From Dongia deserti (lineage in GTDB: Bacteria > Pseudomonadota > Alphaproteobacteria > Dongiales > Dongiaceae): a DNA stretch of 64,000 nucleotides. Location: positions 310,001 to 374,000 of the forward strand of contig NZ_QORW01000003.1 in assembly GCF_003574735.1 (NCBI RefSeq). Reading direction: 5' to 3'. Both the position numbers and the translations under genes were made by a program. Within the stretch, counting starts at the first letter, position 1; every line of letters begins with the position of its first letter. The notes beneath the pieces are model-generated. The model did no database searches and had not been told where the DNA came from. It was given only the letters and a program-made list of their open reading frames with translations. This document shows, piece by piece, positions 1,772-28,553 of this stretch.

Positions 1772-1797
1772 GATGCCTTTCCGTTCTGATGAGACGA

Positions 1798-4113: not shown

Positions 4114-4133
4114 CGTATGATCCGCGCCCCGGG

Positions 4134-5591: not shown

Positions 5592-5660
5592 GTCACGATC
5601 TCCTTCCCCGCTAAAGGCCCATTCTGTTCGGCGCCCTTCGGTCTATGATGCAGCGCCCGA

Positions 5661-5795: not shown

Positions 5796-5917
5796 CATGC
5801 CTCCAGACTCGATCACTCTCCGGACATGCCGCGGATGCCCGCGCCTCCTCACGTTCTGCCTCATGGTGGTTGGCCCCTGTTGCCCCCGCTTCCAACGACC
5901 GCGACCGGTCGCGCTCC

Positions 5918-8004: not shown

Positions 8005-8458
8005 CGGCAATCGCCCGGCTCAAGGCCTCTTCTTCGTCGAGCGAAAGAAACGTCTCGAGATCGTGAATGAGGATGAGACCATCCCTCAGCCTGACAACGC
8101 CCTCGATATAACCGCTGTCCGGTACCACCGCGCCCGTTGCGATGATGTCCTTATCGGGACAGTCCAGTACGCCTGAAACCGTATCGGCCGCGACAGCCAC
8201 CGGTCTGTGGCGCGTGCGGGCAATGACCAACCTGTCGGACAGAGCAAGCCGGGGTTTCGGTGGCAGAGCGAACCGTCGGCGCACGTCGACGACCGGGACG
8301 ATCTCGCCGTGGATATTCACGATGCCGGTGATGATCTCGGGTGCCTTGGGCAGCGGTGTCACGTGGACGGCTGGCACGACCTTGTCGACCGTCTCAAGGT
8401 GCAGCGCGTAACGATGCCCCTCCAGACCGAACACAAAGAGCTGAGTCCCCAGTCCCAC
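7997..8458 (-). CDS. cheW: CheW scaffold protein
   Basis: First gene of the chemosensory operon. The 153-residue protein is essentially one CheW domain: FVFGLEGHRYALHLETVDKV, the conserved GIVNIHGEIVPVVDVRRRF, and a C-terminal GLILIHDLETFL. It bridges the MCP and CheA. The inferred start is GTG at 8458 preceded by an AGGTGAG-like ribosome site. An AT-rich stretch upstream (8486-8530) is the only obvious place for the operon promoter. Two CheW proteins in one operon is typical of Wsp/Che3 clusters. Confidence 0.93.
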   Translation of the reverse strand: MGLGTQLFVFGLEGHRYALHLETVDKVVPAVHVTPLPKAPEIITGIVNIHGEIVPVVDVRRRFALPPKPRLALSDRLVIARTRHRPVAVAADTVSGVLDCPDKDIIATGAVVPDSGYIEGVVRLRDGLILIHDLETFLSLDEEEALSRAIADA

Positions 8459-13045: not shown

Positions 13046-13591
13046 ATGAAACTTTCGCTCGACAAGGCGGAGAGCACCCTTGTCCGCCAGCTCATCCTGG
13101 GCGGCACGCCCCATGAGGAGGTCGTCCGGCAGAGCGGAGTCTCGAGCGGCACGGTCAGCAAGATCCGTCAGCAGCTCAAGGCGAACGTGATGCTCTTGCG
13201 CAACACAGAGGGCCAGATGTGCGTGCCCACTGCGTGCCCATACCAGAACATCGCGCCAACAAAAGCGCAGGTGAGCGAAGAACGCGATTCTTGTTGCAAA
13301 GATTGGTGGGCGCGGCAGGACTCGAACCTGCGACAACACCGTTATGAGCCTTTCTCTTTGGCGCCCTTATCCGCCGAGGAACAGCCGGCCCACCTCGGCA
13401 TCTGCGGCAAGCTCACCCCCTCTGCCGGCGCGAGCGAGCTGGCCGGAGACAAGGACGTAGCCGATGTCGGCGAATTCCAGCCCCTTCTTCGCATTCTGCT
13501 CCACCATGAGGATGGTCTTGCCATCGCGTCGCTGCAGCTCGTTCATGATCTCGAACACCATGTCGATGAAGCGTGGCTCCAGTCCAAGTGA
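13046..13591 (+). CDS. Small helix-turn-helix reading frame, 3' part doubtful
   Basis: Residues 1-45 look like a compact helix-turn-helix: TLVRQLILGGTPHEEVVRQS and GVSSGTVSKIRQQL. The remainder is suspect, because the frame reads antisense through the tRNA-Met fragment (giving the familiar spurious peptide WWARQDSNLRQ) and then 225 bp antisense into livF. A true gene may therefore be only the first 60-80 codons, with its original 3' end lost at the junction with the tRNA scar. A weak AGGA lies about a dozen bases upstream of the ATG. It could be a phage- or element-derived regulator, or no gene at all. Confidence 0.35.
   Translation: MKLSLDKAESTLVRQLILGGTPHEEVVRQSGVSSGTVSKIRQQLKANVMLLRNTEGQMCVPTACPYQNIAPTKAQVSEERDSCCKDWWARQDSNLRQHRYEPFSLAPLSAEEQPAHLGICGKLTPSAGASELAGDKDVADVGEFQPLLRILLHHEDGLAIASLQLVHDLEHHVDEAWLQSK
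13304..13350 (-). pseudogene. 3' half of a tRNA-Met gene (likely attachment-site remnant)
   Basis: Reading the minus strand from 13350, GGCTCATAACGG carries a CAT anticodon loop, followed by a variable region, a T-arm (GCAGG-TTCGAGT-CCTGC), a 7-base acceptor 3' strand, discriminator A and an encoded CCA ending at 13304. This matches my recollection of the 3' half of alphaproteobacterial elongator tRNA-Met. The 5' half is missing: only 16 bases separate the fragment from the livF stop, and no D-arm exists. tRNA 3' halves of this extent are typical of the distal end of an integrated element, where the crossover lies between anticodon loop and 3' end. Confidence 0.72.
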
Positions 13592-14263
13592 GGGTTCATC
13601 GATCAGGAGCACTTGCGGGTCCATAACGAGGGCACGCGAGATCTCCAAAAGACGCCGTTCACCGCCTGAGAGGACACGGGCCGGTAGATGTCGCCGCTCC
13701 GCCAGTCGCGGATACTTCTCGAGGATCCGCTCGGCCGCCGCTTTGGCCTGTTTCGGCGAGTCCATGAGATAGCCGCCCATCCAGAGATTCTCCTCCACGG
13801 TCATGTCGGCGAAAACGGAGTTGTCTTGCAGTACATAGGCGATGCCGCCGTGCTTGAGCTTGTCGTTGGGCTTGAGTCGGGTCACATCACGCCCCCCGAT
13901 CTGCACCGTACCAGAATAGATATTGGTAAAGCCGAAGATGGTATGGAGCACGGTCGACTTACCGGCTCCGTTCGGCCCGATTAGACAAAGCGACTGGGCC
14001 CTCCCCACCCTGAGCGAGAAGTCATGCAGGATCTCCATCGGTCCGTAGCCGGCACGCAGGCCGTCGAGGGCGAGGACAACATCGCCACCGGCCAGCTGGT
14101 CGAGGACATCGATCGACGGAGCGTCAGCAACGAGCCGCTCGGCTTCACGCGCAACGTCAGTTACGGAGAGCACTATATCTACCGGCTCGGAAGCACGTCC
14201 CGAACAACCTTGGCGCGCCCGCTCGGTTGGCAGGTTTTTCGGTTGCCGCTTCCGTTCCGCCAT
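13367..14263 (-). CDS. livF: Branched-chain-type ABC transporter ATP-binding protein LivF
   Basis: One of two ATPases driving the first Liv-type importer. Walker A GPNGAGKST, Q-loop VLQDNSVF, signature VLSGGERR, Walker B VLLIDEPSLGL and H-loop-region MVEQN are all visible. At 298 residues it is about 55 longer than typical LivF; the extra N-terminus (MAERKRQPKNLPTERARQ and onward to about residue 62) has no recognised domain, and translation could begin further in. Its ATG directly follows the livG TGA. It is the last gene of the operon, and the tRNA-Met fragment begins 16 bases after its stop. Confidence 0.92.
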   Translation of the reverse strand: MAERKRQPKNLPTERARQGCSGRASEPVDIVLSVTDVAREAERLVADAPSIDVLDQLAGGDVVLALDGLRAGYGPMEILHDFSLRVGRAQSLCLIGPNGAGKSTVLHTIFGFTNIYSGTVQIGGRDVTRLKPNDKLKHGGIAYVLQDNSVFADMTVEENLWMGGYLMDSPKQAKAAAERILEKYPRLAERRHLPARVLSGGERRLLEISRALVMDPQVLLIDEPSLGLEPRFIDMVFEIMNELQRRDGKTILMVEQNAKKGLEFADIGYVLVSGQLARAGRGGELAADAEVGRLFLGG

Positions 14264-15007
14264 TCAGTGCGATCCCAGGTAGGCGTCGACCACGCGCTGG
14301 TCGTTGCGGACCTCGTCCGGTCGACCCTGGGCCAGGAGCTCGCCATGCGCCAGGCAATAGATGTACTCGGCCAGGTTCATGATCACGCGCATATTGTGCT
14401 CGATCACGAATAGCGTGATACCGAACTCCTCGTTGGCCCGCTTCAGACGGTCGATCACTCCGTTGATGAGCGTTGGGTTGATGCCGGCCGTCGGCTCGTC
14501 GAGCATCAGCATTTTCGGCTCGTTCATGAGCGCCATGGCGAATTCCAGCAGCTTTTGCTGGCCGAAGGAGAGCGAGCCGGCCTGCAGATGGCGCTTGGGG
14601 TGGAGCCCGACGAACTCGAGCAATTCCTCGGCACGCTTCTCGCGCAGAGGATTCCGCGCCCGGAACAGATCGAACAGGCTGCTCCCTCTTTGAGAGGAGG
14701 AGATCAACATGTTTTCGACACAGGTCATGCGGCCGTAGATCCGCGTCTGCTGGAAGGTGCGGATGAGGCCGAGGCGCGCAACGTCGGCGGCCCGAAGATG
14801 GGATATCTCGCGTCCCTCGAAACGGATGACTCCTTCGTCGATCGGATGAGTGCCGACGATTGAGGAGAACAGGGTTGTCTTTCCCGATCCGTTGGGGCCA
14901 ATCAGCCCGACAATCCGGCCTTCCTCCACCGAGAGACTGATGGAGCGGTTGGCCCGGACACCTCCGTAGGACTTCGACACGCGCTCGACTTCCAGCATGG
15001 CGTTCAT
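14264..15007 (-). CDS. livG: Branched-chain-type ABC transporter ATP-binding protein LivG
   Basis: Second ATPase of the importer, 247 residues, normal length. Walker A GPNGSGKTT, signature SLSFGQQKLLEFA (a conservative variant of LSGGQ common in LivG), Walker B MLMLDEPTAGI and switch His in FVIEHNMRV. LivG proteins carry the extra insert after the Q-loop seen here (ENMLISSSQRGSSLFDLF). The ATG overlaps the livM stop as ATGA; the stop abuts the livF start. Confidence 0.94.
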   Translation of the reverse strand: MNAMLEVERVSKSYGGVRANRSISLSVEEGRIVGLIGPNGSGKTTLFSSIVGTHPIDEGVIRFEGREISHLRAADVARLGLIRTFQQTRIYGRMTCVENMLISSSQRGSSLFDLFRARNPLREKRAEELLEFVGLHPKRHLQAGSLSFGQQKLLEFAMALMNEPKMLMLDEPTAGINPTLINGVIDRLKRANEEFGITLFVIEHNMRVIMNLAEYIYCLAHGELLAQGRPDEVRNDQRVVDAYLGSH

Positions 15008-16071
15008 CGAGCCTTCGTCTCCTCAACCGCGTCCATGTCCTTCACACCCTCCACGCGGTGACCGAACCAGGCCGGAAAGCGCTCGCGCAGGAAGCCCATG
15101 ATGCCCTGCGGGAAAAATACCACGATCAATACGATCAGGAGGCCGAGTGCCACGCGCTGCCACCCAAGGAGATAGGTCCAGCTTGCCTCCTTGAATACCT
15201 GGAACAGTATGGCGCCGATGACCGGCCCCCACAGCGTGCCCTTGCCGCCAAGCACGGCCATCAGGACCATCCACACGCCGAAAGTGGCGCCGGCGAAGGC
15301 CGTGTCGATCGGATCGATGAAGCGTTTGAGATTGCCGAGAATTCCCCCGGCGATGCCAAGGAAGAATGCCGCGATGACCCACGCCGTCGTCTTGATCTGC
15401 GTGGTCCGCAGTCCCATCGCTTCGGCCTTGTCCTCGTTATCGCGTATGGCGTTGATGGCAAATCGGAAACGCGTCGTATAGAGCCAACGCAGGCCGAGAA
15501 ACGTGACGATGGCGAGCGCAAATGCGAGGTAGTAGTAGAAGCGCGACAGGTCGCCTATGGCGCCTGGCGGGTTGGGCGGTACCATGCCGGATCCCGCGCC
15601 GATCCATTCCCAACCGTTGGCGAGCTCGCCTGCGGCAACGCCAAGGCCCAGCGTGCAGATCGCAAAGTAGTGTCCGCGCATTCCGAGGACGAGGGAGCCG
15701 AGAAAGGCGGCCGTGAGTGCGGCAAGGACGGCGCCGACCGGCAGGCCGATTGCCAGTCCTTCGAAGTACTGCCTGGGGTCGAACGTGAAGATCGTCGCCC
15801 CGCCGCCACGCGCGTCATTGTAGGCAGAGACTTGGTAAAACAGGCCGACCTGCGTGACCACGCAGGCATACATGCCGACACCGAGGAACACGACATTGCC
15901 GAAGGAGTTGTAGCCCATCTGGCCGCCGACCAGGTCCCAGGTCAGTGCGAAGACGATGAACAGCCAGAGCTCAGCCATCTGCGACTGCCAGGCGGGAAAG
16001 ACAAGCGGCGCAGCAATGCCAATCGCCAGGATCGCGAGATGACCGAGAAGAGGTCGGCGCGACTTGCTCAC
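15004..16071 (-). CDS. livM: Branched-chain-type ABC transporter permease LivM
   Basis: Inner-membrane permease, 355 residues, with about ten hydrophobic segments; LivM hallmarks include NSFGNVVFLGVGMY and a C-terminal VLIVVFFPQGIMGFLRERF. GTG at 16071, which overlaps the livH stop (GTGA) and has an AGAGAGGA ribosome site, is preferred to an upstream ATG that would extend 88 residues antisense-like sequence deep into livH. It forms the membrane channel with LivH. Confidence 0.92.
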   Translation of the reverse strand: MSKSRRPLLGHLAILAIGIAAPLVFPAWQSQMAELWLFIVFALTWDLVGGQMGYNSFGNVVFLGVGMYACVVTQVGLFYQVSAYNDARGGGATIFTFDPRQYFEGLAIGLPVGAVLAALTAAFLGSLVLGMRGHYFAICTLGLGVAAGELANGWEWIGAGSGMVPPNPPGAIGDLSRFYYYLAFALAIVTFLGLRWLYTTRFRFAINAIRDNEDKAEAMGLRTTQIKTTAWVIAAFFLGIAGGILGNLKRFIDPIDTAFAGATFGVWMVLMAVLGGKGTLWGPVIGAILFQVFKEASWTYLLGWQRVALGLLIVLIVVFFPQGIMGFLRERFPAWFGHRVEGVKDMDAVEETKAR

Positions 16072-16970
16072 TTCAAGTATCCTCTCTTGCGCGCGAGCCG
16101 CCTGTTGCGCCACACGAGCACGACAACAAGGAGCAGGAAGACGAAGGCGAGCTGGTACTGCGTGCCGAACACGAAGCCTGCGACGTTTTCCGCCGCCCCA
16201 AGGCCCAGCCCGGCCGCTATGACGCCGGCCAGATTGCCGAGCCCGGCGACGACGACGATCATGAAGGATCGAATCGTGTAGGGCAGGCCGATATAGGGAT
16301 GGACCGTATAGGCCATCGCCACCAGGGCGCCGCAAGCACCGCAGATCGCTGCGTTGAGCCCGTAGGTCGCGGCATAAACGCGATCGGTGTCGATTCCGAG
16401 CACCCGTGCAGCGCGCGGATGCTGCGCAGTCGCCCGGATCGCCTGGCCGAGCCTAGAGCGCTTCAAGAACACGACCAGCGTCGAGCCGAGCACGGCAGCG
16501 AGTGCGAAGGCCAGAAGCTTGACCTGGGCAAGCGACACCATGCCGTTCATCAGGAAAACCGTGCCGAGCCCGGCGTCGGCGATCCGCACATTGCCGCCGA
16601 ATATCGTGTTCATCAGCTGCTGCAGCACGATCGATATGCCGAAGGTCGCGAGTATCGAGGTGAACAGATCCCGGTCGACGATCCGGAAAATCACCGTGCG
16701 GTATAGAGCCCAGCCGATTGCGTAGAGCAACAATGCGGCTACCGGCACCGCGATGAGCGGGTGTATCCCGTATGCCGCCATGACGACGGCGACATAGCCA
16801 CCCAGGATCACGAACTCGCCTTGGGCAATGTTGATGATGTTCATAACGCCCCAGACGAGCGCCATACCATAGGCTGCCAGCGCGAAGATGGCGCCGAGCA
16901 GGAGCCCGTTGAGCACGAGATCCAGCGTGATGACCGGTGCTTGGACGAGGATTTCGATGTTGTCCAGCAC
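16068..16970 (-). CDS. livH: Branched-chain-type ABC transporter permease LivH
   Basis: Inner-membrane permease of 300 residues with about eight transmembrane segments. The LivH signature MNIINIAQGEFVILGGYVAV is near residue 40 and VVVAGLGNLAGVIAAGLGLG near residue 230. It is separated from the binding-protein gene by 89 bp containing a strong hairpin, an arrangement that commonly lets the binding protein be made in excess over the membrane parts. Confidence 0.93.
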   Translation of the reverse strand: MLDNIEILVQAPVITLDLVLNGLLLGAIFALAAYGMALVWGVMNIINIAQGEFVILGGYVAVVMAAYGIHPLIAVPVAALLLYAIGWALYRTVIFRIVDRDLFTSILATFGISIVLQQLMNTIFGGNVRIADAGLGTVFLMNGMVSLAQVKLLAFALAAVLGSTLVVFLKRSRLGQAIRATAQHPRAARVLGIDTDRVYAATYGLNAAICGACGALVAMAYTVHPYIGLPYTIRSFMIVVVAGLGNLAGVIAAGLGLGAAENVAGFVFGTQYQLAFVFLLLVVVLVWRNRRLARKRGYLK

Positions 16971-17018
16971 GATCCGGGACTGCTTTTCAGATCGTCATCG
17001 CGATGATGGAGCGGATGC

Positions 17019-17043
17019 GGGCGGGTCGGTCACCGACCCGCCC
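17019..17043 (-). terminator. 11-bp perfect hairpin between binding-protein gene and livH
   Basis: GGGCGGGTCGG and its exact complement flank a 3-base loop. It lies 17 bp after the binding-protein stop in the transcription direction. There is no T-run, so partial termination or 3'-end protection of the upstream mRNA is more likely than full termination; either would raise binding-protein output relative to LivHMGF. Confidence 0.6.
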
Positions 17044-17059
17044 AAATCTGCACGACCCA

Positions 17060-18283
17060 TCAGGTTGACGGGCGCGGCACCACCGCTTCCGTATCGGCGA
17101 CACCGGATGGCCAGACGACCTTGTACTCGCCGTCGAGCACCTGATAGAGTGCCATCGGCTTGGCGATGTTCTTGCCGGCCTGGTCGAACTTGATCGGTCC
17201 GTAGAACGTCATCATGTCGGTCGCCGCCAACGCGTCGCGTACCTTTTTCGAGTCCAGTTCGCCGGCTCGTTCGAAGGCATCGGCGTAGACTTGCACCGCT
17301 GCCGCGGACTCCGCGGCCTGATAGGGTGGAGCATATCCATAGGTCTCTTCGAACAGCTTGGCAAAGTCCTGCGCCGAGCCGAACAGCTCGTCGGAGTAGC
17401 TCATCGTCGGCGCCCATTGAGTGGCACACAGCGTGTGCTCCGCCCCATCGCCGAACTTACCGATGATGTCGGCGGAGTCGCAGTGGGTCATGGCGAGGAC
17501 CGGGAAGTTGACCTTCAGCTCGTTGATCTGGCGGATCGCCGTCGCGGCACCTTTGGAGTGGCCGGAGACAATCAGCAAGTCTGGTTTGAGCGCCTTCACC
17601 TTCGTGAGCGTGGCAGTCATGTCGTTGAGCTCGCGCGGAAGCTGGTCGTCGATGACCGCCTCCATGCCGTACTCCTTCATGTCGTCAAGAACACCTTCGC
17701 GAACGTCCTGGCTGAATGGATCGTTCTCGAACGCCATGGCCACCTTGATTTCCTCCGGCTCCTTGCCAAGATCGTCCGCATTTTTCGCGACGAGCGTTAT
17801 AGCGCCGGTTAGGTACTGTTCCGACGTCGAAAGCGTGGCGAAGAGGTATTTCCAGTTATTGGTGAACAGCGACCGCGATGCGCCATTGGCCTCCACCATC
17901 GGCACCCCGTGCTCCTCGGTCACCGGCGCGATGGCCTTGGTCATGCCCGAGGAATAGGGGCCCAGCATGAATTTGATGCCGTCCTGCTGGATGAGGCGCT
18001 CAGCGAGCTCTGCACCCCGGGCCGGCGTTGACTCGTCGTCGTAGTACTTGATCTCGATCTTGTAGGTCTCGTCACCGACCGTCACGCCGCCGGCCTCGTT
18101 GATCTTCTTCACGGCAAGATCATAGCCGCGCTTTGTATGTTCACCGTTGGTCGTGTACTTGCCGGTCAGAGATACCGCGGCGCCCAGAGTGATGATGCTG
18201 CCATCGGACTGGGCATTCGCTGCCGCGAACGGCAAACTCGCCGCTGCAACAGCGGCGATCATAAACGTGCGATAATGCAGCAT
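17060..18283 (-). CDS. Periplasmic substrate-binding protein of a Liv-type ABC importer
   Basis: First gene of the importer operon. A 407-residue Leu/Ile/Val-binding-type (Peripla_BP_6) protein with a Sec signal peptide (hydrophobic core FMIAAVAAASLPFAAANA, cleavage near residue 24). The mature part begins IITLGAAVSLTGKYTTNGEH, the usual LivJ-like start, and contains MLGPYSSGMTKAIAPVTEEH and VPMVEANGASRSLF. The substrate is not readable: family members bind amino acids, amides, urea or aromatic acids. The start ATG lies 8 bases from a GGAGG-like site. Confidence 0.92.
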   Translation of the reverse strand: MLHYRTFMIAAVAAASLPFAAANAQSDGSIITLGAAVSLTGKYTTNGEHTKRGYDLAVKKINEAGGVTVGDETYKIEIKYYDDESTPARGAELAERLIQQDGIKFMLGPYSSGMTKAIAPVTEEHGVPMVEANGASRSLFTNNWKYLFATLSTSEQYLTGAITLVAKNADDLGKEPEEIKVAMAFENDPFSQDVREGVLDDMKEYGMEAVIDDQLPRELNDMTATLTKVKALKPDLLIVSGHSKGAATAIRQINELKVNFPVLAMTHCDSADIIGKFGDGAEHTLCATQWAPTMSYSDELFGSAQDFAKLFEETYGYAPPYQAAESAAAVQVYADAFERAGELDSKKVRDALAATDMMTFYGPIKFDQAGKNIAKPMALYQVLDGEYKVVWPSGVADTEAVVPRPST

Positions 18284-18987
18284 AGCTGGTTCCTCCCTTG
18301 TTTTTCTTGCGTTCCAGCCGAAAGGAACGTTTGGTTCGAAGGTCCTGATTGGGCCGATGCCGTCGAGAACGCTCGCGATTTTGTTGGCGCACCGCTTGCT
18401 GGGTATTCGGCCGGTGCATCAGCTTGCCGTGACGGCGCGCGCCCCTTCGGGTCACGCACCCAGGCTGACGTTCTCTGACAAGCGGCAGTCGCACCGGACG
18501 GTCTGCTGGCGGACATGGCACCCCTCCGCCCCGCCTTCGCAGGCCCCAGCTTGCTCTGGCGCTGCCACAAGGCCCACTGGTGCCCCTTCGCTGCAACACA
18601 TGCGCGAATTCCCAGCGATTCGCGGTAGACTCTACTGTTTCATGGAAGGGACCACCTTCGCCTTAACATAGGTTAGGCCGTCGCGGGGCGCTTGGGATCA
18701 GTCTGCACTTGATATTTCTTCCACTCAAAGAAAGCGCTTTAGGCCTCGTCTGCCGACTCCGCTATGTTGGCTGGAGGCTGGAAGCGACAATGCCGTCTGC
18801 CGGAATCCAATTGGCTCGCGCCTGGTCTCAATCGCTCCCAGCACAAGCAATAGAATCATCTGTTCGTCAGGCGGCCTGCTCCGCCATGGCCACAAGCCAT
18901 CGTCATCGTCCAGGCCTAGCTGGGCCGAACGATCTGAGGCCCTGCCGAAGATAGCGCCGGGTGGGATGTTTCCGCATCCTTGCCGGA
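18284..18987. other. Intergenic stretch with repeat copy A
   Basis: About 700 bp upstream of the liv operon, no credible gene. It contains the first copy of a 43-bp repeat (18637-18679). The part next to the operon presumably holds the binding-protein promoter; no specific -35/-10 was recognised. Confidence 0.5.
18637..18679 (+). repeat. 43-bp repeat, copy A
   Basis: From 18641 it matches copy B (19567-19605) at 36 of 39 bases; four further upstream bases of each extend the similarity to 43 bp. The copies are in the same orientation, 926 bp apart, and bracket the small secreted-protein gene. A short shared frame reads MEGT-FALT. Confidence 0.7.
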
Positions 18988-19284
18988 TCAATCTGATTCG
19001 GCCATCTGCGCCACATTGCCCAACAGCTTCTGCACTTCATCGTAGCGCGATTGGATGCAGAGGTCGCGGGCCATTGCGATCAGACTCCTGGCTTTGGCGC
19101 TTAGCTCGTCCTCTTGTCTTTCCCTCCGGTTTTCAACCTCAGCGACGCTACGCATGCAGTCACGGGCTGAGACATAAGGCGGCTCGTCTGCAAAGGCCGG
19201 ACTAGGCGCGGCGTGCCCGCCCAGTAACATCAGCGTCAGGGCCAAGACAAGGATCGGAATGTGTGAAGATTCAGGTCCTCTCAT
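18988..19284 (-). CDS. Small secreted protein of unknown function
   Basis: A 98-residue protein with a clear Sec signal peptide (core IPILVLALTLMLLGGHAA, cleavage after AFA near residue 32). The mature part is charged and helical (SVAEVENRRERQEDELSAKA) with two Cys residues (SARDC and DLCIQS) that could form a disulphide in the periplasm. The start ATG at 19284 has a strong GGAGAGGAGG ribosome site 4 bases away; the open frame upstream is not needed. I do not recognise the family. It is a lone gene flanked by two copies of a 43-bp repeat. Confidence 0.7.
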   Translation of the reverse strand: MRGPESSHIPILVLALTLMLLGGHAAPSPAFADEPPYVSARDCMRSVAEVENRRERQEDELSAKARSLIAMARDLCIQSRYDEVQKLLGNVAQMAESD

Positions 19285-19934
19285 CGAGCCTCCTCTCCGA
19301 ATTACGAACCGGGGCTCTAGCGGGATTGGCTGCAAATCGGCCTCGAGGGTCCAGACCCTTGCCGAAGCTTCACCCTCCTGATCCATGATTTTGTGCAGGC
19401 AGTGCCCGCTTCGCCGCGAGGCGCTCTTAGGCGGGAGACTGCCTTTCACGAGCCATCCCGTGGTACACAGCCCATGTGTCGGACGTAGCCGTGTGACAAG
19501 GACGTACGCCTGGCAGTCACCGGCTCGAATAGCCATTAGGGCCGTCCGTCAATCATGCCCATGTTCCATGGAAGGGACGGCCTTCGCCTTAACATGGGTT
19601 AGGCCATCCTCCGGCGTGCCCCGGCAGGTTCCCACGACAGCGGCGATGCCGCATGGCTTTTCCTGGCAATGATGGGAGCTGCGAGTGGGCTATCTATTTG
19701 ATTGGGCAGAGGAGTTCTGTCCAATGGGCGAGACAGGCCACCTGGCGTCCGTGTACCGGTGACATTGCCAAGGGCAGACGAAATTCGGTCATTGCCGTTG
19801 TTCGTCCCCGTCCAGGAAAGGCGGCGCTCGGCCAGTCTCTTGCTGCAAAGCACGTCTTTGGTCATTCATGGTCGGTTCGTTCGCAACGGCGCCGAAACAG
19901 ACGACTTCGGTCGGCACAATCGGGGGACCTCTTG
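19285..19934. other. Intergenic stretch with repeat copy B
   Basis: About 650 bp separating the secreted-protein gene from the divergently placed Crp-type regulator. It contains repeat copy B (19563-19605). An open frame upstream of the regulator start has no domain content. Confidence 0.45.
19563..19605 (+). repeat. 43-bp repeat, copy B
   Basis: Second copy of the repeat seen at 18637-18679, same orientation. Its 3' part contains TTAACATGGGTTAG; the core AAC-ATGG-GTT is a near-palindrome that recurs at 22118-22131. No transposase or terminal inverted repeats are evident. Confidence 0.7.
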
Positions 19935-20651
19935 GTGGACACACCGCTTCACCGGAAACTGAGCTCAGCGGTTTCTTTGACCGACGAAGACGTCATTGTG
20001 GTCGACAGACTGCTGTCAACCACCCAAGTCGCGCCCGCAGGTGCCACGCTCATCCCAGAGGGCCATGTTGGCGGGGAGGCTTATGTCCTGCTGGCGGGGT
20101 GGGCCTACCGCTTCCGGATGTTCGAGGATGGCCGGCGCCAGATATCTCGCCTGCTTCTCCCCGGTGATTTCATCGGATTGAATGCCAGCTATTTGGGAAT
20201 GCCGGAGCAGTCCATCGTGGCGCTCACGGATGTGCAGCTTGCGAAGATCGACGCGAAGCTGCTGATGGAGCATTTTCGGCAATCTCCGCGGCTATCTTTG
20301 GCATTCTTATGGTCCGACACCAGGGATCGCTTCATCACCGAAGAACGGGTCGCGAGCATTGGTCGGAGATCAGCATATGAGCGGCTCGCCCACGTATTTC
20401 TGGAGCTGTACCTACGCCTCGAGCTGATCGGCGAAGCGGCGGAGGATGTGTACTCATTGCCCCTGACGCAGGAGCATCTGGCAGACCTCCTTGGGCTGAC
20501 AAGCATTCATGTCAACCGCGTGCTCCATCGCCTGAAAAACGACGGCTTGATAGCGATGGAGGCACGAACGATTCGCCTCCTGTCGCGTGAGAAATTGATG
20601 CGTGTTTCAGACTTTGATCCGAGATATCTCATGCACCGGAGCCCCAAGTAG
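19935..20651 (+). CDS. Crp/Fnr-family transcriptional regulator
   Basis: A 238-residue protein with an N-terminal cyclic-nucleotide-binding fold (GATLIPEGHVGGEAYVLLAG, GRRQISRLLLPGDFIGL) and a C-terminal winged HTH: LPLTQEHLADLLGLTSIHVN followed by RVLHRLKNDGLI. No FNR-type cysteine cluster is present. The first ATG of the open frame would add 94 residues with no similarity, so GTG at 19935 (GGGGGA site upstream, normal family length) is preferred; the adjacent TTG at 19932 is possible. Rhizobial relatives are often linked to oxygen or stress responses, but the target genes here are unknown. Confidence 0.87.
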   Translation: MDTPLHRKLSSAVSLTDEDVIVVDRLLSTTQVAPAGATLIPEGHVGGEAYVLLAGWAYRFRMFEDGRRQISRLLLPGDFIGLNASYLGMPEQSIVALTDVQLAKIDAKLLMEHFRQSPRLSLAFLWSDTRDRFITEERVASIGRRSAYERLAHVFLELYLRLELIGEAAEDVYSLPLTQEHLADLLGLTSIHVNRVLHRLKNDGLIAMEARTIRLLSREKLMRVSDFDPRYLMHRSPK

Positions 20652-20688
20652 CAGACGCCTGCTTGCAGTGGCCTGACCCCGTTGGCCT

Positions 20689-21866
20689 TCAAGGACTGTA
20701 TAGGCCTGGGGATCTTAGTTGATCGCGAAGTACGGGCCCGAGCACCAGACCTGCGAGCCACGGGATGGACAGCACCTTGGAAGCTCGATTCCGAAGGAAA
20801 ATACCGAACCTGGTGCGCGGCACAAACGCGCCGGCCAGCGTCTCGCCCGCTCTCTGCTTCCTCTCGACGAGGGGACGCATCCAGTCTTCGTAACGCGAGA
20901 ACGCTGCTTCGTATTCTCTGCCGAAAACGTCCAGCTCACGTGCCAACACGTATGCCCCTGTCATGGCAAGAGCCGCACCCTGCCCCGCCAGGAGGGACGG
21001 AGCGTAGGCCGCATCGCCGACAAGCGCGATCCGGCCACTGGACCAGCGTTCCATGCGTATCTGGCTCACCCGATCGAAATAGAGATCCTCGCTCTGATCT
21101 AACAGATTGAGCATCGTAGAGCATTCCCAGCCCTCGCGATCGAACTGGTGATGCAGGAGTTCCCTTTGGATTGTTGGATCGCTCAGGTCTGCCGTGCCCA
21201 AGCCGTTCGCCGCGAAAACGGCGAAAATGACAGTCGCGTCATCCTCGACCGCAAATCGCGCGATCTGCTTGCCCGGCGCGGAATAAGCGACATAAGCACC
21301 TTCGTCGCGCGGCCGATATCCGTACACGGCAAACGCCGCCGCCATGTATCCGAGATGCCTTTCAAAACGCCCTTGTCCTCCAAAGGCCAGTCTGCGAACC
21401 GTGGAATGAAGGCTATCCGCGCCAATCACGAGGTCGAAGGAAAATCAACGTCAACCGCCGATGAGGTTTTCGTCATCTTGGTGATCGTATCATCGAAGAT
21501 GACTTCGCATTCCGATTCAATCGATCGATAGAGGAGACTGGCAAGGGCTCCGCGTCTCAGGCTCGCGAATCGACCACCCGAGAGCCGCTGAAACACAGTA
21601 GCGTCAAATCCACCTGTCCTCTGGCCCAGACGGTCGACAAATTTGAGCTCCCTGACGCGGTAATCCTCTCGGGCAATGTCGCGAGTCAGTCCCATATGCT
21701 CAGCGACATCATATCCGGTACCCCAGAAGTCGATTACGTATCCACCGGTTCGCGGAGAGGCGTCGCGCTCGACAACCGTCGGACTGAAGCCCGCCTTTGC
21801 CAGCCAATATGCCAGACAAGGTCCTGCTATCCCGAGGCCGGAGATGAGGACGGATCCTCTCGTCAC
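20689..21866 (-). pseudogene. FAD-dependent aromatic-type monooxygenase, split by a frameshift
   Basis: Two adjacent frames together make one p-hydroxybenzoate-hydroxylase-like flavoprotein. The 5' part has the dinucleotide motif VLISGLGIAGPCLAYWLAKAG and the acidic residue of TVVERDASPR. It stops near 21426 after AVDVDF. One base shifted, the sequence resumes FDLVIGADSLHSTVRR, the conserved DG-type motif, and continues to GRIALVGDAAYAPSLLAGQG, the FAD ribityl-binding GD motif. The break is in a T-run (about 21438), so a real one-base deletion or a sequencing error are both possible. The start at 21866 is GTG and tentative. Confidence 0.8.
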
Positions 21867-22180
21867 AGGACATGTCCTACTCTGCTTCTGCGGCTTGGCG
21901 AACTCTCGGCGCGAGCTGCGCCAAAATCTGCACTCTGCTGTCGTGGTCCATTCGCAAGCGGACGCTTCCGAAAAAGGACCGGCATGCCATTCCGCACGCC
22001 GGCTGAGTTGGACAATAACGTCACTGGAGCTCGAGACCAAGGCGTCCGAGTGCCGACCTCTTGATCTCCAATACCCCAGGGTTGACAGGCTTATATGAGC
22101 GCCGCCCTGTGTAGCACTAACATGGGTTAGGAAGCGCGATCATTTGAAGCAGCGTTAGAGTTCTCTTACGCTAGCCTCGC
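21867..22180. other. Intergenic stretch with a short repeat-like palindrome
   Basis: About 310 bp between the flavoprotein remnant and the BASS-type transporter gene. CTAAC-ATGG-GTTAG (22117-22130) is a palindrome also present within repeat copy B. No gene seen. Confidence 0.4.
22118..22131 (+). repeat. Partial third copy of the repeat core
   Basis: TAACATGGGTTAGG, 14 of 14 bases shared with repeat copy B, centred on a CTAAC/GTTAG dyad. Too short to prove common origin. Confidence 0.4.
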
Positions 22181-23110
22181 TCAGGCACTCTTTCGATAGA
22201 ACGCGCCCAGCAGGATCGGCGTGAGGTACATGGGTATCTGATAGCATCCGATGAAAAGCAGAAGCGGATCGGTCACGGCCGCCGGAAGCGCGGCAAGGAA
22301 AAGCGCAATGTTGCGATTTCCTGCAACGATCCCCAACGGGGCCGCTATATGACGGGTCCCGGAGCGCCGGAGCCACAAGGTCACCAGGATTTGAAGGCCG
22401 AAATTGCCGGCAAAGGCAGCGCCGAGCGCGAGGGCAAATGCCTGAGGGTTGGAGCCCATCGCCGGGCCAACGGCGGACATGAGGCCCACGACCACCACGG
22501 CCATCCCAATAGCTGAGAGTCCGTCGATCGCCACTAACGTCTCCTTGGCCGGATTGGCGAACCAGAAACGGACGGCGAAAGCGCCTCCTGCTGCCAGAGA
22601 GATTATGAGGAGCAGCCGAGCGGCGGCCGTGAACACTTGCGCTCCGTCGCCTAGCGCGGGCGCCAGCCAGAACACGGGAATGACGGTGAGGGGCAGGAGA
22701 GCTGTTCCGACGACGAGCTGGCGCAACGCCGGCGCTGGATCGTGTCCGGTGAGGATCGTCAGGTTCGGGCTTCCCGAAATCGGAGACGCTGCCATCATCA
22801 ACACCAGCGCCGTTGAGAGAGCACCCGACCATCCGGCAATCCGGAACAGCAGCATCGCCGCCACAGGAAACGCGATCTGAAAAATCAACGTGAATACTAT
22901 CGAGTTTCGGAGGTCCGCCAAGGCGCCGACGGCCTGCCGCGGTCCGACCCGCAACGCTGCGATGAACAGCAGGACCGCGACCAGCTCGCCGATCCAGGGC
23001 CTGAGCGCGAGCGCCAGATCGGGGAAGAGAATGCCGGCGAGAAGCCCCAGCACGAGCACGGAGCGGCCATGGCGCGCGACCCACCCGAGGCCGGTGACGA
23101 TCGCAGTCAT
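22181..23110 (-). CDS. Bile acid:sodium symporter (BASS)-type transporter
   Basis: Polytopic inner-membrane protein of 309 residues with about nine or ten hydrophobic segments. Helix-breaking stretches MMAASPISGSPNLTILTGHD and PLGIVAGNRNIALFLAALPA resemble the two broken-helix sites of BASS/SBF transporters such as ASBT and ArsB-like Acr3. Substrate unknown. ATG at 23110 with an AGAGG site is preferred to ATG 23128, which lacks one. The gene starts 46 bp after the TRAP large-permease stop in the same direction, so it may be co-transcribed with the TRAP genes. Confidence 0.75.
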   Translation of the reverse strand: MTAIVTGLGWVARHGRSVLVLGLLAGILFPDLALALRPWIGELVAVLLFIAALRVGPRQAVGALADLRNSIVFTLIFQIAFPVAAMLLFRIAGWSGALSTALVLMMAASPISGSPNLTILTGHDPAPALRQLVVGTALLPLTVIPVFWLAPALGDGAQVFTAAARLLLIISLAAGGAFAVRFWFANPAKETLVAIDGLSAIGMAVVVVGLMSAVGPAMGSNPQAFALALGAAFAGNFGLQILVTLWLRRSGTRHIAAPLGIVAGNRNIALFLAALPAAVTDPLLLFIGCYQIPMYLTPILLGAFYRKSA

Positions 23111-23156
23111 TCCAGCCTCTGACAGCATGGGGAAGGCGGGGCAGTATCCAACGGGA

Positions 23157-24470
23157 TCAGCCGCCTGGCCGATAGTACATGTTGGCCGGCAGCCAGGTCG
23201 CCAGATCCGGGAAGGCGATCAGGAGGAAGACCATAAGCATCATGATCAAGAACATCGGGAAGGCCACCCGCGCGATATAGTTCATCTCGTGCCCTGTCAT
23301 GCCTTGCAGCACGAAGAGGTTGAAGCCGACGGGCGGCGTCACCTGAGCCATTTCGACGACCACCACGACGAAGATGCCGAACCAGATGATGTCGATTCCC
23401 GCCTCCCGAATCATCGGCTCTACGACCGCGATCGTCAGCACGACCGCGGAGATGCCGTCGAGAAAACAGCCAATGATGATGTAGAAGACGAGAAGCACCA
23501 TCAAAAGCTCCAAGCGCGAGAGCTCGAGAGAGCCGATCCACTGAGCCAAGCCACGCGGCAGGCCGGTAAAGCCCATCGACAACGAAAGGAAGGCCGCGCC
23601 GGCGAGGATGAAAGCGATCATTGCAGAGGTCCGCGTCGCGCCCATCAGGCTTTCGGCAAAGGTGATGCGAGTCAGCGAGCCCTGCGCGGCAGCAAGCGCG
23701 AGGGCACCGACGACCCCGATAGCGGCTGCTTCTGTCGCCGTGGCAAACCCGAGGTACATGGACCCGATCACCGCGATGATCAGAAGCAGGACGGGGATCA
23801 GGAAGCGCGAGTTCTTGAAGCGCTGCGAGAACGGTACTGCCGGTTCCGGGTCCGGACGGTAGCTCCGTGAGAACTTCGAGGCGACAGCTACATAGCCCAT
23901 GAAAAGGAAACAGAGGACAAGGCCGGGGATGATGCCGGCAATGAACAGCCTCGTGATCGACTCATTGATCGTCACCCCATAGACGATCAGGGTGAGTGAA
24001 GGCGGAATCATCAGACCGAGCGTCGCGGCCCCCGCGAGCGTTCCGATCACCATGCTTTCGGGGTAGTGGCGCTTCCTGAGCTCCGGGATCGACATCTTCC
24101 CGACCGTAGTCAGCGTGGCAGCCGAGGAGCCGGAGACGGCGGCGAAGACCGTGCAGCCGACCACATTGGTGTGGAGCAGACCACCCGGCAATCTCGCCAT
24201 CCAGGGCGAAAGACCCTTGAACATGTCTTCTGAAAGCCGGGTCCGAAAGAGGATCTCACCCATCCAGATGAAGAGCGGCAGCGCCGTCAACGTCCATGAC
24301 GAAGCCGAGCGCCAGATGGTGGTCATCATCGCGTCGCCCACCGGTCGCAACGTGAAAAGCTCCATTCCGACCCAGGCGACGCCGAGGAGCGCAAGGCCCA
24401 CCCAGACGCCGGTGCCGAGCAGCAGGAACAGGACGAACAGAAAGATGGCGATTGCGGCGAAGCCTTCCAT
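23157..24470 (-). CDS. dctM: TRAP transporter large permease (DctM family)
   Basis: The 437-residue large membrane subunit, with 12-13 hydrophobic segments. DctM hallmarks are visible: LPLFIWMGEILFRTRLSEDM near residue 65, LRKRHYPESMVIGTLAGAAT with GLMIPPSLTLIVYG, and GIFVVVVVEMAQVTPPVGFN near residue 370. Uptake is driven by an ion gradient, not ATP. It follows dctQ by 6 bp and works with DctQ and DctP. Confidence 0.95.
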   Translation of the reverse strand: MEGFAAIAIFLFVLFLLLGTGVWVGLALLGVAWVGMELFTLRPVGDAMMTTIWRSASSWTLTALPLFIWMGEILFRTRLSEDMFKGLSPWMARLPGGLLHTNVVGCTVFAAVSGSSAATLTTVGKMSIPELRKRHYPESMVIGTLAGAATLGLMIPPSLTLIVYGVTINESITRLFIAGIIPGLVLCFLFMGYVAVASKFSRSYRPDPEPAVPFSQRFKNSRFLIPVLLLIIAVIGSMYLGFATATEAAAIGVVGALALAAAQGSLTRITFAESLMGATRTSAMIAFILAGAAFLSLSMGFTGLPRGLAQWIGSLELSRLELLMVLLVFYIIIGCFLDGISAVVLTIAVVEPMIREAGIDIIWFGIFVVVVVEMAQVTPPVGFNLFVLQGMTGHEMNYIARVAFPMFLIMMLMVFLLIAFPDLATWLPANMYYRPGG

Positions 24471-24476
24471 GCCGGG

Positions 24477-24995
24477 CTATTCCGCCGCTCTCTCGACCAC
24501 ATCCGACCGGATGTTGTCCTGGCGGGTTGCAATCAGGCTGATGAGATTGTCCGCGAAGCAGATCGCCAGAAGAATAGCGCCGAACGCCATCGGCAGCTGT
24601 GGGATCCAGAGCGGTGTCACGTCTTGACCCTGGCTGACGTCGTGCAACTTCCACGACCAGTAGACCGTCTTCACCGCGTACCAGGCGAGGTAGGAAGACG
24701 TGGCAGTGCCGACAACAAGGCCCCAGAGCTCGCCCCAGAAGCGGCGCTCGCCGAGCACTGTCAGCAACAGGCTCACCCTGATGTGGGCGCCGCGGTTGAG
24801 CGTATGAGCAAAGGCGAGGAAGGAGGCCGCGGCCATCAGATACCCGGCATACTCCGCGGAACCGGGAAAGGGCGTGCCGATCCATCGCGCTACCATCTGC
24901 AGGACAATCACGCAAAGGATGAAGATGAGGCAGAGCGCCGCCATTACGCCCGCGCCATCATAGATCGCGTCAAGTGCGCGCCGGATAGCAGGCAT
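24477..24995 (-). CDS. dctQ: TRAP transporter small permease (DctQ family)
   Basis: Small membrane subunit of 172 residues with four hydrophobic segments; the DctQ signature FPGSAEYAGYLMAAASFLAF followed by AHTLNRGAHIRV is near residue 55. ATG at 24995 with an AGAGG ribosome site is chosen over an upstream in-frame TTG. It lies between dctP and dctM on the minus strand. Confidence 0.9.
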   Translation of the reverse strand: MPAIRRALDAIYDGAGVMAALCLIFILCVIVLQMVARWIGTPFPGSAEYAGYLMAAASFLAFAHTLNRGAHIRVSLLLTVLGERRFWGELWGLVVGTATSSYLAWYAVKTVYWSWKLHDVSQGQDVTPLWIPQLPMAFGAILLAICFADNLISLIATRQDNIRSDVVERAAE

Positions 24996-25067
24996 CACGG
25001 CCTCTCCCAAACAGTCGCTCGCCGATTGCGGCTCGACTCAGCACCCGGGCCGCCGCGTTTGCAAGGA

Positions 25068-26042
25068 TCACATCGCCTTGTAGGCGTCGATAATCGCCTT
25101 GCCCTCTGCGCCCGCACTGTCCACCCATTCCTGGGTCATGGTTTCGCCGAAGGCCTTGAGCTCCGACTTCAGCTGGTCGCTGGGCTCGGAGACTTTCATG
25201 CCGTTGTCGGCGAGCGTCTTGAGAGTCTGATCGGTAAGCGCCTTCGATTTCGCGGTTCCTTCCGCAGCCGCCTTCTCGCCGCAGTCGGCGATCGCTTTCT
25301 GCGTGCCATCGTCGAGCGCACTCCAGGCGTCCTTGTTGACGAAGACCACGTTGCGTGGCAGCCAAGCCTGGACATCGTAGAAGTGCGTCAGGCTCTCCCA
25401 GACCTTGGAATCGACACCCGTGGCGCCTGAAGAGATCAAGCTCTCTGCCACGCCGGTTGCCAGCGCCTGGCTGAGCTCGGCCGCCTCGATCTGGACGGGT
25501 GCCATGCCGGCCAGCGCGGCGATGCGTGCGGTCGCGGCGTTGTAGGCGCGGAACTTGATTCCCTTCATGTCCGCTACCGCGTTGACCTCCTTCTTGAAGT
25601 AGAGGCCCTGCGGCGGCCAAGGGACGGCATAGACATAGACCAGGTTCTGTTCATCGAGCGCCTGGGTCAGCTTTTCGCGCGCGGCCTTCCAGAGCTTGTC
25701 GGAAGCCTCGAAGGAGGTCGCGAGGAAGGGGATGGAGTCAATGCCGAACAGCGGGTTCTCGTTGGCGTGGGCCGAAATCAAGCGTTCGCCGATCGGCGCC
25801 TGACCTGTCTGCACGGCGCGCTTTATGTCGTTTCCGCTGAACAGGGCGCCGTTGGGGTGGGTGACAATCTCCAGATTGCCGCCGGTGCCCTCGGCCACGC
25901 ATTTGGCGAAGGCGACAGCGTTTTCGGAATGGAAGTTGGTCGCCGGGTAGGCCAGAGGCATGTCCCATTTCTCGGCCGCCAAGGCCGGTGCCGAGGCCAC
26001 GACGAGTGCCGCCGAGGCAAGAAGCGCCGATAAATGCTTCAT
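25068..26042 (-). CDS. dctP: TRAP transporter substrate-binding protein (DctP family)
   Basis: Periplasmic binding protein of 324 residues. Signal peptide core LSALLASAALVVASAPALA with cleavage before AEKWDM. The DctP family arginine region is visible in MKGIKFRAYNAATARIAALA, which contacts the ligand carboxylate, with LYFKKEVNAVADMKG just before it. The substrate is therefore probably an organic acid. ATG at 26042 (GGGAG site, 8-base spacing) gives a clean signal peptide; an in-frame ATG lies 8 codons earlier. Confidence 0.92.
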   Translation of the reverse strand: MKHLSALLASAALVVASAPALAAEKWDMPLAYPATNFHSENAVAFAKCVAEGTGGNLEIVTHPNGALFSGNDIKRAVQTGQAPIGERLISAHANENPLFGIDSIPFLATSFEASDKLWKAAREKLTQALDEQNLVYVYAVPWPPQGLYFKKEVNAVADMKGIKFRAYNAATARIAALAGMAPVQIEAAELSQALATGVAESLISSGATGVDSKVWESLTHFYDVQAWLPRNVVFVNKDAWSALDDGTQKAIADCGEKAAAEGTAKSKALTDQTLKTLADNGMKVSEPSDQLKSELKAFGETMTQEWVDSAGAEGKAIIDAYKAM

Positions 26043-26171
26043 TTTCTGGTCTCCCATTTTTGCCACGCCGTTCCACTCTCTTTCTCATCGCCCTATTGGA
26101 ACCGCGAAGGTGCGTAGAGCGCAAGGTTCAAATTGGGTGCGCGTCCGGACACAAGCCGAGCCAGAAGCCGG

Positions 26172-26330: not shown

Positions 26331-27470
26331 ATGAAGAAAACTCTTGTGGCAGGTCTGTTTGGGCTTGCGGTCAGCGTGTCGGGCGTTGCCTTTGCCGAGC
26401 CCGTCAAGGTCGGCATGATCACCACGCTTTCGGGCGGCGGGGCGGGCCTTGGCATCGACGTGCGCGACGGCTTCCTGCTTGCGATCAAGCAATCGGGCAA
26501 CAAGGACATCGAGGTCGTCGTCGAGGACGACGCGATGAAGCCGGAGCTAGCGGTGCAGATCGCCGACAAGATGATCCAGAGCGACAAGGTCGATATTCTG
26601 ACCGGAATCATCTGGTCCAATCTTGCGATGGCCGTGGTGCCGAACGCGGTCGCGCAGGGCAAGTTCTATCTTTCGCCCAATGCCGGCCCCTCAGCGCTCG
26701 CTGGCGCCAAATGCGACGAAAACTATTTCAATGTCGCCTGGCAGAACGACAATTTGCACGAGGGGATGGGCAACTACGCCAACACCGCAGGCTACAAGAA
26801 CTCCTTCATCCTGGCGCCCAACTACCCTGCCGGCACCGATGCGCTGACGGGCTACAAGCGTTTCTACAAGGGTGAGCTCGCCGGCGAGATCTATACCAAG
26901 CTCGCCCAGACCGACTATGCGGCGGAGATCGCCCAGATTCGCGCTTCGGGCGCGGATTCGGTTTACATCTTCCTCCCGGGCGGCATGGGGATCGCCTTCA
27001 TGAAGCAGTACGCCCAGTCGGGCGTCGGTATCCCGGTGCTGGGCCCCGGTTTCTCGTTCGACCAGGATGTGTTGGGCGCGATCGGCGATGCGGCCATCGG
27101 CGTAAAAAACACCTCGCAGTGGTCGAAGGACCTCGACAATCCGACCAACAAGACGTTCGTCGAGACCTTCCAGGCCGAGTACGGCCGGCTGCCGTCGCTT
27201 TATGCAAGCCAGGGCTACGACACGGCGAGCCTGATCCTCTCGGCCGCCGCCAAGGCCAGCGTAAAGGACGCAGATGCCTTCCGCGCCGCGCTCAAAGCGG
27301 CGGATTTCAAGTCGGTGCGCGGCGACTTCAAATTCGGCAACAACCACCACCCGATCCAGGACATCTACGTGCGGGAAGTCGTGAAGGAAGGCGACGTGCT
27401 GACCAACAAGATCATCGGCGTGAGCCTGGAAGACCATCAGGACGCTTACGCCAGCGAGTGCAAGATGTGA
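26331..27470 (+). CDS. Periplasmic substrate-binding protein of the second Liv-type ABC importer
   Basis: A 379-residue Peripla_BP_6 protein. Signal peptide core TLVAGLFGLAVSVSGVAFA, mature start EPVKVGMITTLSGGGAGLG. Conserved body elements include DILTGIIWSNLAMAVVPNAV and KNSFILAPNYPAGTDALTGY, a variant often seen in binding proteins for aromatic or short organic acids rather than leucine; that assignment is only suggestive. A GGAGGAG ribosome site precedes the ATG. It heads the operon with livHMGF. Confidence 0.9.
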   Translation: MKKTLVAGLFGLAVSVSGVAFAEPVKVGMITTLSGGGAGLGIDVRDGFLLAIKQSGNKDIEVVVEDDAMKPELAVQIADKMIQSDKVDILTGIIWSNLAMAVVPNAVAQGKFYLSPNAGPSALAGAKCDENYFNVAWQNDNLHEGMGNYANTAGYKNSFILAPNYPAGTDALTGYKRFYKGELAGEIYTKLAQTDYAAEIAQIRASGADSVYIFLPGGMGIAFMKQYAQSGVGIPVLGPGFSFDQDVLGAIGDAAIGVKNTSQWSKDLDNPTNKTFVETFQAEYGRLPSLYASQGYDTASLILSAAAKASVKDADAFRAALKAADFKSVRGDFKFGNNHHPIQDIYVREVVKEGDVLTNKIIGVSLEDHQDAYASECKM

Positions 27471-27479
27471 CGGCTTCGT

Positions 27480-27597
27480 CTCCCCCTTTTCTGCCCGCTT
27501 TGCGGGAGAGAAGGGGGATGGCGTCAAGCTTGAAGGCCCATCATCAATGAGTTGCGCACCTCACCCCTGCCTATGTCGCCGACAGGGTGAGGGCGAG
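27480..27597. repeat. Two intergenic palindromes between binding-protein gene and livH
   Basis: First, an imperfect long hairpin at about 27483-27518 (CCCCCTTTTCTGCCCGC / GCGGGAGAGAAGGGGG). Second, CCTCACCCCTG pairing with CAGGGTGAGG at about 27558-27593. Both have the look of rhizobial intergenic palindromic elements (REP/RIME-like). As in the first importer, they separate the abundant binding protein from the membrane genes and may attenuate or stabilise mRNA. Confidence 0.5.
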
Positions 27598-27632
27598 CCG
27601 CAGCGATGCCAATCCTGAGATCCCGTTAGCCT

Positions 27633-28553
27633 ATGCAGACGACCCTCCTGATTGAGCAGATCCTGAATGGCGTGCAGTTCGGCGTCATGCTGTTCCTGAT
27701 GGCGGCCGGGCTGACGCTGATCTTTGGCGTCATGGGCGTGATCAATCTGGCACATGGCTCGCTCTATATGCTCGGCGCCTTCGCCTGTGCAGCCGTCGCG
27801 ACGGCGACAGGCTCGTTCTGGCTCGGGCTCATGGCCAGCCTTGCAGCGGCAGCGGCCGCCGGCGCCATTGTCGAGCTTCTCGTCATCCGCCGGCTCTATG
27901 ATCGTGATCACCTTGACCAAGTGCTTGCCACGTTTGCGCTGATCCTGATTTTCTCGGAAGGGACGCGCTGGCTGTTCGGTTCCTTTCCGCTCTATCTCAA
28001 CATACCGCCCGTGCTGTCCGGTGCGGTCGACCTGCCGGCAGGAGCGCGCTACCAGCTCTACCGCCTGGCGATCATTCTCGTGGGGATTGCAGTGGCGATC
28101 GGGCTCTACCTGCTCATCTCGAAGACCAGGCTCGGCATGCGCATCCGCGCAGGCCAGTCGGATCGCGAAATGATCGCCGCACTCGGTGTGGACATTCGCA
28201 CGCTTTATACCGTCGTCTTTGCACTCGGGGCGGCGCTTGCCGGCCTCGCCGGCGCAATGGTCGGGGCGCTACAGTCGGTACAGGTCGGCATGGGCGAGCC
28301 GGTGCTGATCCTCGCCTTCGTTGTCATTGTTATCGGCGGCATCGGCTCCATCAAGGGCGCGCTGGTCGGTGCTGCGCTCGTCGGTCTCGTCGATACGCTC
28401 GGTCGTTTCCTGCTGCCGCAGTTCTTCGCCCTTTTTCTCGGCCCCTCCCAGGGGACGACCGTCGGGGCGGCACTCGCCTCCATGCTGATCTATATCGTAA
28501 TGGCGTTGATCCTGGCTGTCCGGCCGCGGGGCTTGTTTGCGGCAAGCACATGA
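27633..28553 (+). CDS. livH: Branched-chain-type ABC transporter permease LivH (second system)
   Basis: A 306-residue permease with about eight membrane segments. LivH signatures: GVMGVINLAHGSLYMLGAFA near residue 40 and FVVIVIGGIGSIKGALVGAA near residue 235. Its TGA overlaps the livM ATG. It is only distantly similar to the LivH encoded at 16068-16970, so the two importers are not a recent duplication. Confidence 0.94.
   Translation: MQTTLLIEQILNGVQFGVMLFLMAAGLTLIFGVMGVINLAHGSLYMLGAFACAAVATATGSFWLGLMASLAAAAAAGAIVELLVIRRLYDRDHLDQVLATFALILIFSEGTRWLFGSFPLYLNIPPVLSGAVDLPAGARYQLYRLAIILVGIAVAIGLYLLISKTRLGMRIRAGQSDREMIAALGVDIRTLYTVVFALGAALAGLAGAMVGALQSVQVGMGEPVLILAFVVIVIGGIGSIKGALVGAALVGLVDTLGRFLLPQFFALFLGPSQGTTVGAALASMLIYIVMALILAVRPRGLFAAST

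Follow-up and report, generated by a model that had tools for sequence, protein, structure and literature searches.

What is the role of three short, similar DNA elements that lie around a regulatory gene in the alphaproteobacterium Dongia deserti? The question arises from a stretch of 64,000 nucleotides (NCBI RefSeq assembly GCF_003574735.1, contig NZ_QORW01000003.1, positions 310,001 to 374,000 of the forward strand), referred to here as the window, in which positions are counted from the first letter. An initial annotation described a pair of 43-bp repeats bracketing a small secreted-protein gene, with a third, partial copy further along, and offered three alternatives: a miniature element, the boundaries of a small recombining cassette, or regulator sites. 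Regulator sites are supported by the analysis described here, while the other two alternatives are not. The annotation was silent on two features of the locus, namely that the core of the elements is an inverted repeat (dyad) and that a gene of the Crp/Fnr family lies between copies 2 and 3. On the sequence patterns set out below, the three elements are very probably operators of this Crp/Fnr-family regulator (19935-20651), which would act on its own neighborhood.

A Repeat Pair and a Shared Dyad

The two long repeats are real and lie 926 bp apart in the same orientation, as had been annotated; their gapless likeness extends to 47 bp, with 42 of 47 positions identical, and stops sharply there in a blastn comparison. 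When all pairs of 47-mers at spacings of 100-5000 were compared across 10-30 kb of the window, the top pair had 42 identities, against a best value of 30-32 in 10 first-order Markov sequences. The third element, at 22117-22131, is shorter. An exact 14-mer, TAACATGGGTTAGG, is common to copy 2 (at 19590) and to 22118-22131, so the recurrence of the core holds; the remainder of the 43-mer is absent there, and the element consists of the dyad alone rather than a partial repeat. The sequence AACATGGGTT begins at 22119, not at 22118 as first placed.

The core common to all three elements is the dyad YTAAC-N4-GTTAR, with arms of five bases around a spacer of four, which is the geometry of FNR-type operators. 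In the genome, TAACATRGGTTAGG occurs at exactly three places, all of them in this region, and allowing one mismatch adds one more place on another contig, compared with three places for the reversed control pattern at up to one mismatch. The perfect dyad YTAACNNNNGTTAR has five occurrences in the genome of 6.13 Mb, against 17 for its reversed control pattern. Three of these five places fall within 3.5 kb around the Crp/Fnr gene; by our own arithmetic, five places drawn at random would include three within 3.5 kb of one another with a chance of a few in a million. Of the remaining two perfect dyads, one is intergenic and directly precedes a gene on the minus strand (locus L027), and the other is inside a kinase-like reading frame (locus L031).

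The Regulator and Its Recognition Helix

The protein of 238 amino acids encoded between copies 2 and 3 belongs to the Crp/Fnr family, with matches above cut-off to PF00027 (E 1.5e-11), PF13545 (E 4.5e-16) and PF00325 (E 2.2e-6), corresponding to a cyclic nucleotide-binding-like domain and a Crp-type helix-turn-helix. Its start codon, GTG at 19935 or TTG at 19932, was picked by comparison with the closest relative's regulator (locus L026, the same as L009), which is 60% identical. Scores for the named NCBIfam subfamilies fall far below their cut-offs (FnrL, 69.5 of 300 bits needed; FixK, 62.1 of 300; Fnr, 40.7 of 228). In oxygen-sensing FNR, cysteines hold an iron-sulfur cluster; there is no cysteine among the 238 residues of this protein, and an FNR-type iron-sulfur sensor is thus not expected. 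The recognition helix reads LGLTSIHVNRVL and, in an alignment with FixK2, stands opposite LGLTLETVSRAL, so that an isoleucine replaces the glutamate, a residue that contacts a base in the operator.

Dyads Beside Homologous Regulators

Homologs of the regulator were collected from the same family (12 of 17 genomes, E <= 1e-25) and from a sample of the class (16 of 385, E <= 1e-44), giving a first set of 32 loci. Nine loci whose matched stretch contained no H-x-[NS]-R motif (seven H-x-G-R, one HTNK and one ETVCR) were dropped, as were two overlapping loci, L046 and L022, the dyad in the former also being visible in L035. In the 21 non-overlapping H-x-[NS]-R loci that were kept, the wider dyad YTRAY-N4-RTYAR occurs 17 times, compared with 1.87 in shuffled sequences and with an expectation of 2.26 if its density across these genomes as a whole is applied. 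As this wider pattern was chosen after reading these very loci, a hold-out test was written down before new loci were fetched.

The hold-out set comprised the 30 best-scoring loci of another order, in which 113 of 390 genomes gave a match at E <= 1e-38, and the background was formed by shuffles and permuted arms. All 30 loci encode an H-x-[NS]-R helix, and 29 of them contain at least one dyad. In total there are 52 dyads, compared with a mean of 3.1 and a maximum of 13 in 300 shuffles, and with 10 for the next highest of 60 permuted arms; CTAAC is the commonest arm (38 of 104). Four of the 52 dyads sit right at the beginning of the regulator's stop-to-stop open frame, and thus perhaps before its start codon. 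The sites in the window show the sequence hallmarks of a Crp/Fnr operator, a 5-N4-5 inverted repeat near the regulator gene that is enriched beside the genes of homologs.

A smaller set came from the order of one class match (8 of 17 genomes, E <= 1e-35) and added 13 loci. Five of these, with H-[VM]-NR helices, hold five dyads, although one of the five loci has none and three of the five dyads resemble one orthologous site; the eight loci with HTNR or HANR helices hold none. In the closest relative, L026, TTAATCTAGGTTAA is found 22 bp after the regulator gene and before genes for a trehalose-phosphate phosphatase and a trehalose-phosphate synthase. The regulator of that locus (L026:3531-8310) lies between a CLC chloride channel gene and the trehalose-phosphatase and glycosyltransferase-20 genes. 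Additionally, at L042:1407-3684 a homolog has dyads just before and just after its gene, much like the window, and the dyad after the gene precedes a solute-binding-protein-like gene, named by eye.

Promoter Spacing and a Proposed Mechanism

As a dimer, the regulator would occupy YTAAC-N4-GTTAR; the expected outcome at operator 3 would be class II activation, with the site centred near -41, of the gene resembling flavin adenine dinucleotide (FAD)-dependent monooxygenases. A -10-like hexamer, TATAAG, starts 29 bp from the centre of this dyad, and in L009/L026 the hexamer TATATT occurs at the same offset. Among the first 22 sites, the mean match to TATAAT peaks at offset 30 (2.95). In the 52 hold-out sites a measure set in advance gave a mean of 2.73 at offset 30, with 12 sites matching at least 4 of 6 positions, and 2.48 with 9 sites at offset 33; by a rule chosen afterwards, TA...T, 13 of the 52 sites match at offset 30 and 4 at the next offset. 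Operators 1 and 2 may serve the liv-type transporter operon, the small open reading frame (ORF) and the regulator itself; from their positions upstream of these genes, the regulator would control its own neighborhood. Binding, the direction of control and a signal for it are what we infer from these arrangements.

Copies 1 and 2 share a further element. The palindrome GAAGG-N5-CCTTC occurs at two places in the window, both inside the repeats, and all five differences between the copies are either within the spacers or beyond the palindromes altogether; by our own arithmetic, the chance of all five avoiding the palindrome arms is about 0.05. This pattern fits adjacent paired operators that were either kept or recently copied. 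The 47-bp identity is best read as a promoter-sized module, consisting of the Crp/Fnr dyad and the second palindrome, that was duplicated or kept alike at two promoters, with a putative role for the second palindrome as well.

Several observations weigh against the assignment of the elements to this regulator and its role as a local activator. The main gap in the account concerns copies 1 and 2, which have GAAACA and GGAACA instead of a good -10 hexamer at class II spacing. From the predicted start sites to the proposed target genes downstream there are 216-345 nt, which implies long leaders, and a sigma-70 scan of 18200-22250 found no promoter (shuffle mean 1.2). The spacing signal itself is limited, as the preset measure peaks only modestly at offset 30 and, among the first 22 sites, matches of at least 4 of 6 number 7 at offset 30 and 8 at offset 33. 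No H-x-[NSG]-R helix is encoded within 1.5 kb of either perfect dyad elsewhere in the genome, and two exact dyads occur in loci dropped for their other helices (L019 and L024). Furthermore, the hold-out loci belong to one order and are partly orthologous, so that the 52 dyads are not independent events. In the 13 further loci the YTRAY arm is found 5 times, the permuted arm YYRAT 6 times and two other arms 5 times each, with a mean of 0.55 and a maximum of 5 in 300 shuffles; as permuted arms and shuffles reach such values, this small set alone would not decide the matter. Lastly, TTAAC arms at two mismatches are not enriched in the 32 loci (21, with permuted arms up to 62).

Alternative Explanations

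Direct repeats of 47 bp flanking an ORF without known homologs could suggest a miniature mobile element, or else a recombining cassette with the small ORF as its cargo and the repeats at its boundary, all the more as the bracketed segment has no DNA-level match in the three other congeners (one of them 68% complete). This explanation is highly improbable, since the search for further copies that the initial annotation had proposed, run against the whole genome with copy 1, returned only the two, and neither a target duplication nor terminal inverted repeats could be seen at the copies. In addition, the third site shares the dyad only, and dyads of the same kind stand beside homologous regulators in other genomes. 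No transposase was found among the 25 distinct window proteins scanned, as annotated, and plasmid records gave no match. In viral contigs a 17-bp core was found in 9 stretches, about the chance level that we estimate for so large a collection. The features that define a miniature transposable element, namely dispersed copies, terminal inverted repeats and target duplications, were thus not found. Searches for a structured RNA were likewise negative: Rfam at a relaxed threshold gave three matches in 17000-23500 (E 0.67-0.98), all far below gathering scores, and when the three sites were folded on either strand, z values ranged from -1.98 to +0.81, with no standout hairpin common to the copies. 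A terminator scan of 18200-22250 found 3, compared with a mean of 3.4 in shuffles.

The elements could also be operators of another regulator, either one acting through GAAGG-N5-CCTTC in copies 1 and 2 or a Crp/Fnr paralog that is encoded elsewhere in the genome and binds the 14-bp dyad. The confinement of the second palindrome within the window to the two repeats would fit the former, and the 12 places that an initial search of the genome gave as candidates for Crp/Fnr-like proteins would fit the latter. This explanation is unlikely, however: the dyads cluster around the local regulator, and at E <= 1e-25 a search of its own genome matches no protein but this one. Less improbable, though still doubtful, is that the 47-bp identity reflects a recent small duplication without a function of its own, with only the 14-bp dyads being of consequence. 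The abrupt end of the likeness at 47 bp and the lack of a good -10 hexamer at copies 1 and 2 point in this direction, whereas the placement of the five differences outside the arms of both palindromes argues against it, at the marginal chance level given above. Such a duplication would be compatible with the assignment of the dyads to the Crp/Fnr-family regulator.

Genes Around the Sites

The sites and the genes that they may serve are listed in Table 1.

Table 1. Positions of the repeats, dyads and neighboring genes in the window.
Feature	Position	Strand	Remarks
Proposed operator 1, dyad TTAAC-ATAG-GTTAG	18663..18676		Centre 386 bp upstream of the solute-binding protein start
Proposed operator 2, dyad TTAAC-ATGG-GTTAG	19589..19602		Distance from centre to the downstream starts: 311 bp (small ORF) and 340 bp (regulator)
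Proposed operator 3, dyad CTAAC-ATGG-GTTAG	22117..22130		Centre 257 bp before the presumed start (21866) of the FAD-monooxygenase
TATAAG, -10-like hexamer	22090..22095	-	Class II spacing from operator 3
Copy 1, 47-bp repeat	18636..18682	+	Upstream of the minus-strand liv-type operon
Copy 2, 47-bp repeat	19562..19608	+	Flanked by the small ORF (minus) and the Crp/Fnr gene (plus)
Second palindrome in copy 1	18645..18659		GAAGG-N5-CCTTC, from a pattern search of the window
Second palindrome in copy 2	19571..19585		GAAGG-N5-CCTTC, from a pattern search of the window
Crp/Fnr-family regulator	19935..20651	+	238 amino acids; between copies 2 and 3
liv-type ATP-binding cassette (ABC) operon	13367-18283	-	Domain scans cover both ends and the permease (16068-16970); the two genes in the middle were judged by eye
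Periplasmic solute-binding protein	17060..18283	-	First gene of the liv-type ABC operon; proposed target of operator 1
Small ORF	18988..19284	-	98 amino acids; secreted-looking by eye; proposed target of operator 2
FAD-dependent monooxygenase-like gene	20689..21866	-	N-part 21426-21866, C-part 20689-21429; proposed target of operator 3

The ORF annotated as a small secreted-protein gene exists, and by eye its start resembles a signal peptide. Neither Pfam nor NCBIfam models match it, and in the class sample of 385 genomes the only match lies in its own genome, with none in the other 384. Its GC content at third codon positions, 0.64 compared with 0.79 in the solute-binding protein gene, indicates a weak codon-position bias, and with no homolog found it is not certain to be a gene. 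In the monooxygenase-like gene, the C-terminal part scores above its Pfam cut-off, and the N-terminal part, at 20.9 bits, below its own. As the gene (20689-22040) is read in two frames, which overlap at about 21426-21429, it is perhaps broken or affected by a sequencing error. Relatives of the substrate-binding protein, searched for in 17 genomes of the family at E <= 1e-60, occur at three places in two other genomes, with 34-35% identity.

The window holds two separate liv/urt-type ABC transporter sets, at 13367-18283 and 26331-29539, with genes of a tripartite ATP-independent periplasmic (TRAP) transporter between them at 23157-26066. At its left, 665-8010, lie chemotaxis genes encoding CheB, a CheA-like protein, a methyl-accepting chemotaxis protein and CheR with tetratricopeptide repeats.

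Relation to Known Operators and Regulators

The operator of FNR/FixK-type regulators is TTGAT-N4-ATCAA. The dyads described here resemble it in their 5-4-5 form and in having, at copy 3 and at the homolog loci, a -10-like hexamer some 29-30 bp away from the centre; they differ in the arm, which is YTAAC in the window rather than TTGAT. The regulator has an isoleucine where FixK2 carries the glutamate of its recognition helix, and it contains no cysteine.

A close counterpart, as regards the operator, is NssR of Campylobacter jejuni, a nitrosative-stress regulator of a globin gene, which carries A180 and Q181 and reads the operator TTAACnnnnGTTAA, according to the sections of the source on this regulator (PMC1274295). 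As far as motif and description allow comparison, the NssR dyad is nearly the same as that of the window, and NssR too is without the glutamate (PMC1274295); its target is a globin gene, in contrast to the putative transport and oxidation targets here. The same sections report that residues 180 and 181 co-vary with the contacted operator bases (PMC1274295), and the window arms agree both with this co-variation and with the NssR operator. Similarly, the motif of HcpR2 from delta-proteobacteria, TTGACnnnnGTCAA, is an FNR-like dyad accompanying a substitution at position 181, though it has G instead of A at the third arm position and other targets (PMC1274295). A 2025 survey describes the base-contact residues of the family as highly conserved (PMC12531629). 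The branch containing this regulator departs at one of the three residues so described. String searches of the open-access literature for CTAAC-N4-GTTAG and the hold-out forms found neither, the NssR motif being nearest.

In combination, these observations permit a broader proposal, for and against which we see the balance as even: that a widespread and apparently unnamed H-x-[NS]-R branch of the Crp/Fnr family, lacking the glutamate of the classic base contact, recognizes CTRAY-N4-RTYAG as an operator code of its own and works for the most part as a class II activator of nearby genes, and that in the window its operator joined to the second palindrome forms a portable 47-bp promoter module found at two promoters. 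If this is true, targets would become predictable for a group of regulators whose operator was not found in open-access print, and the branch would provide a test case for the loss of a base contact accompanying a changed operator arm.

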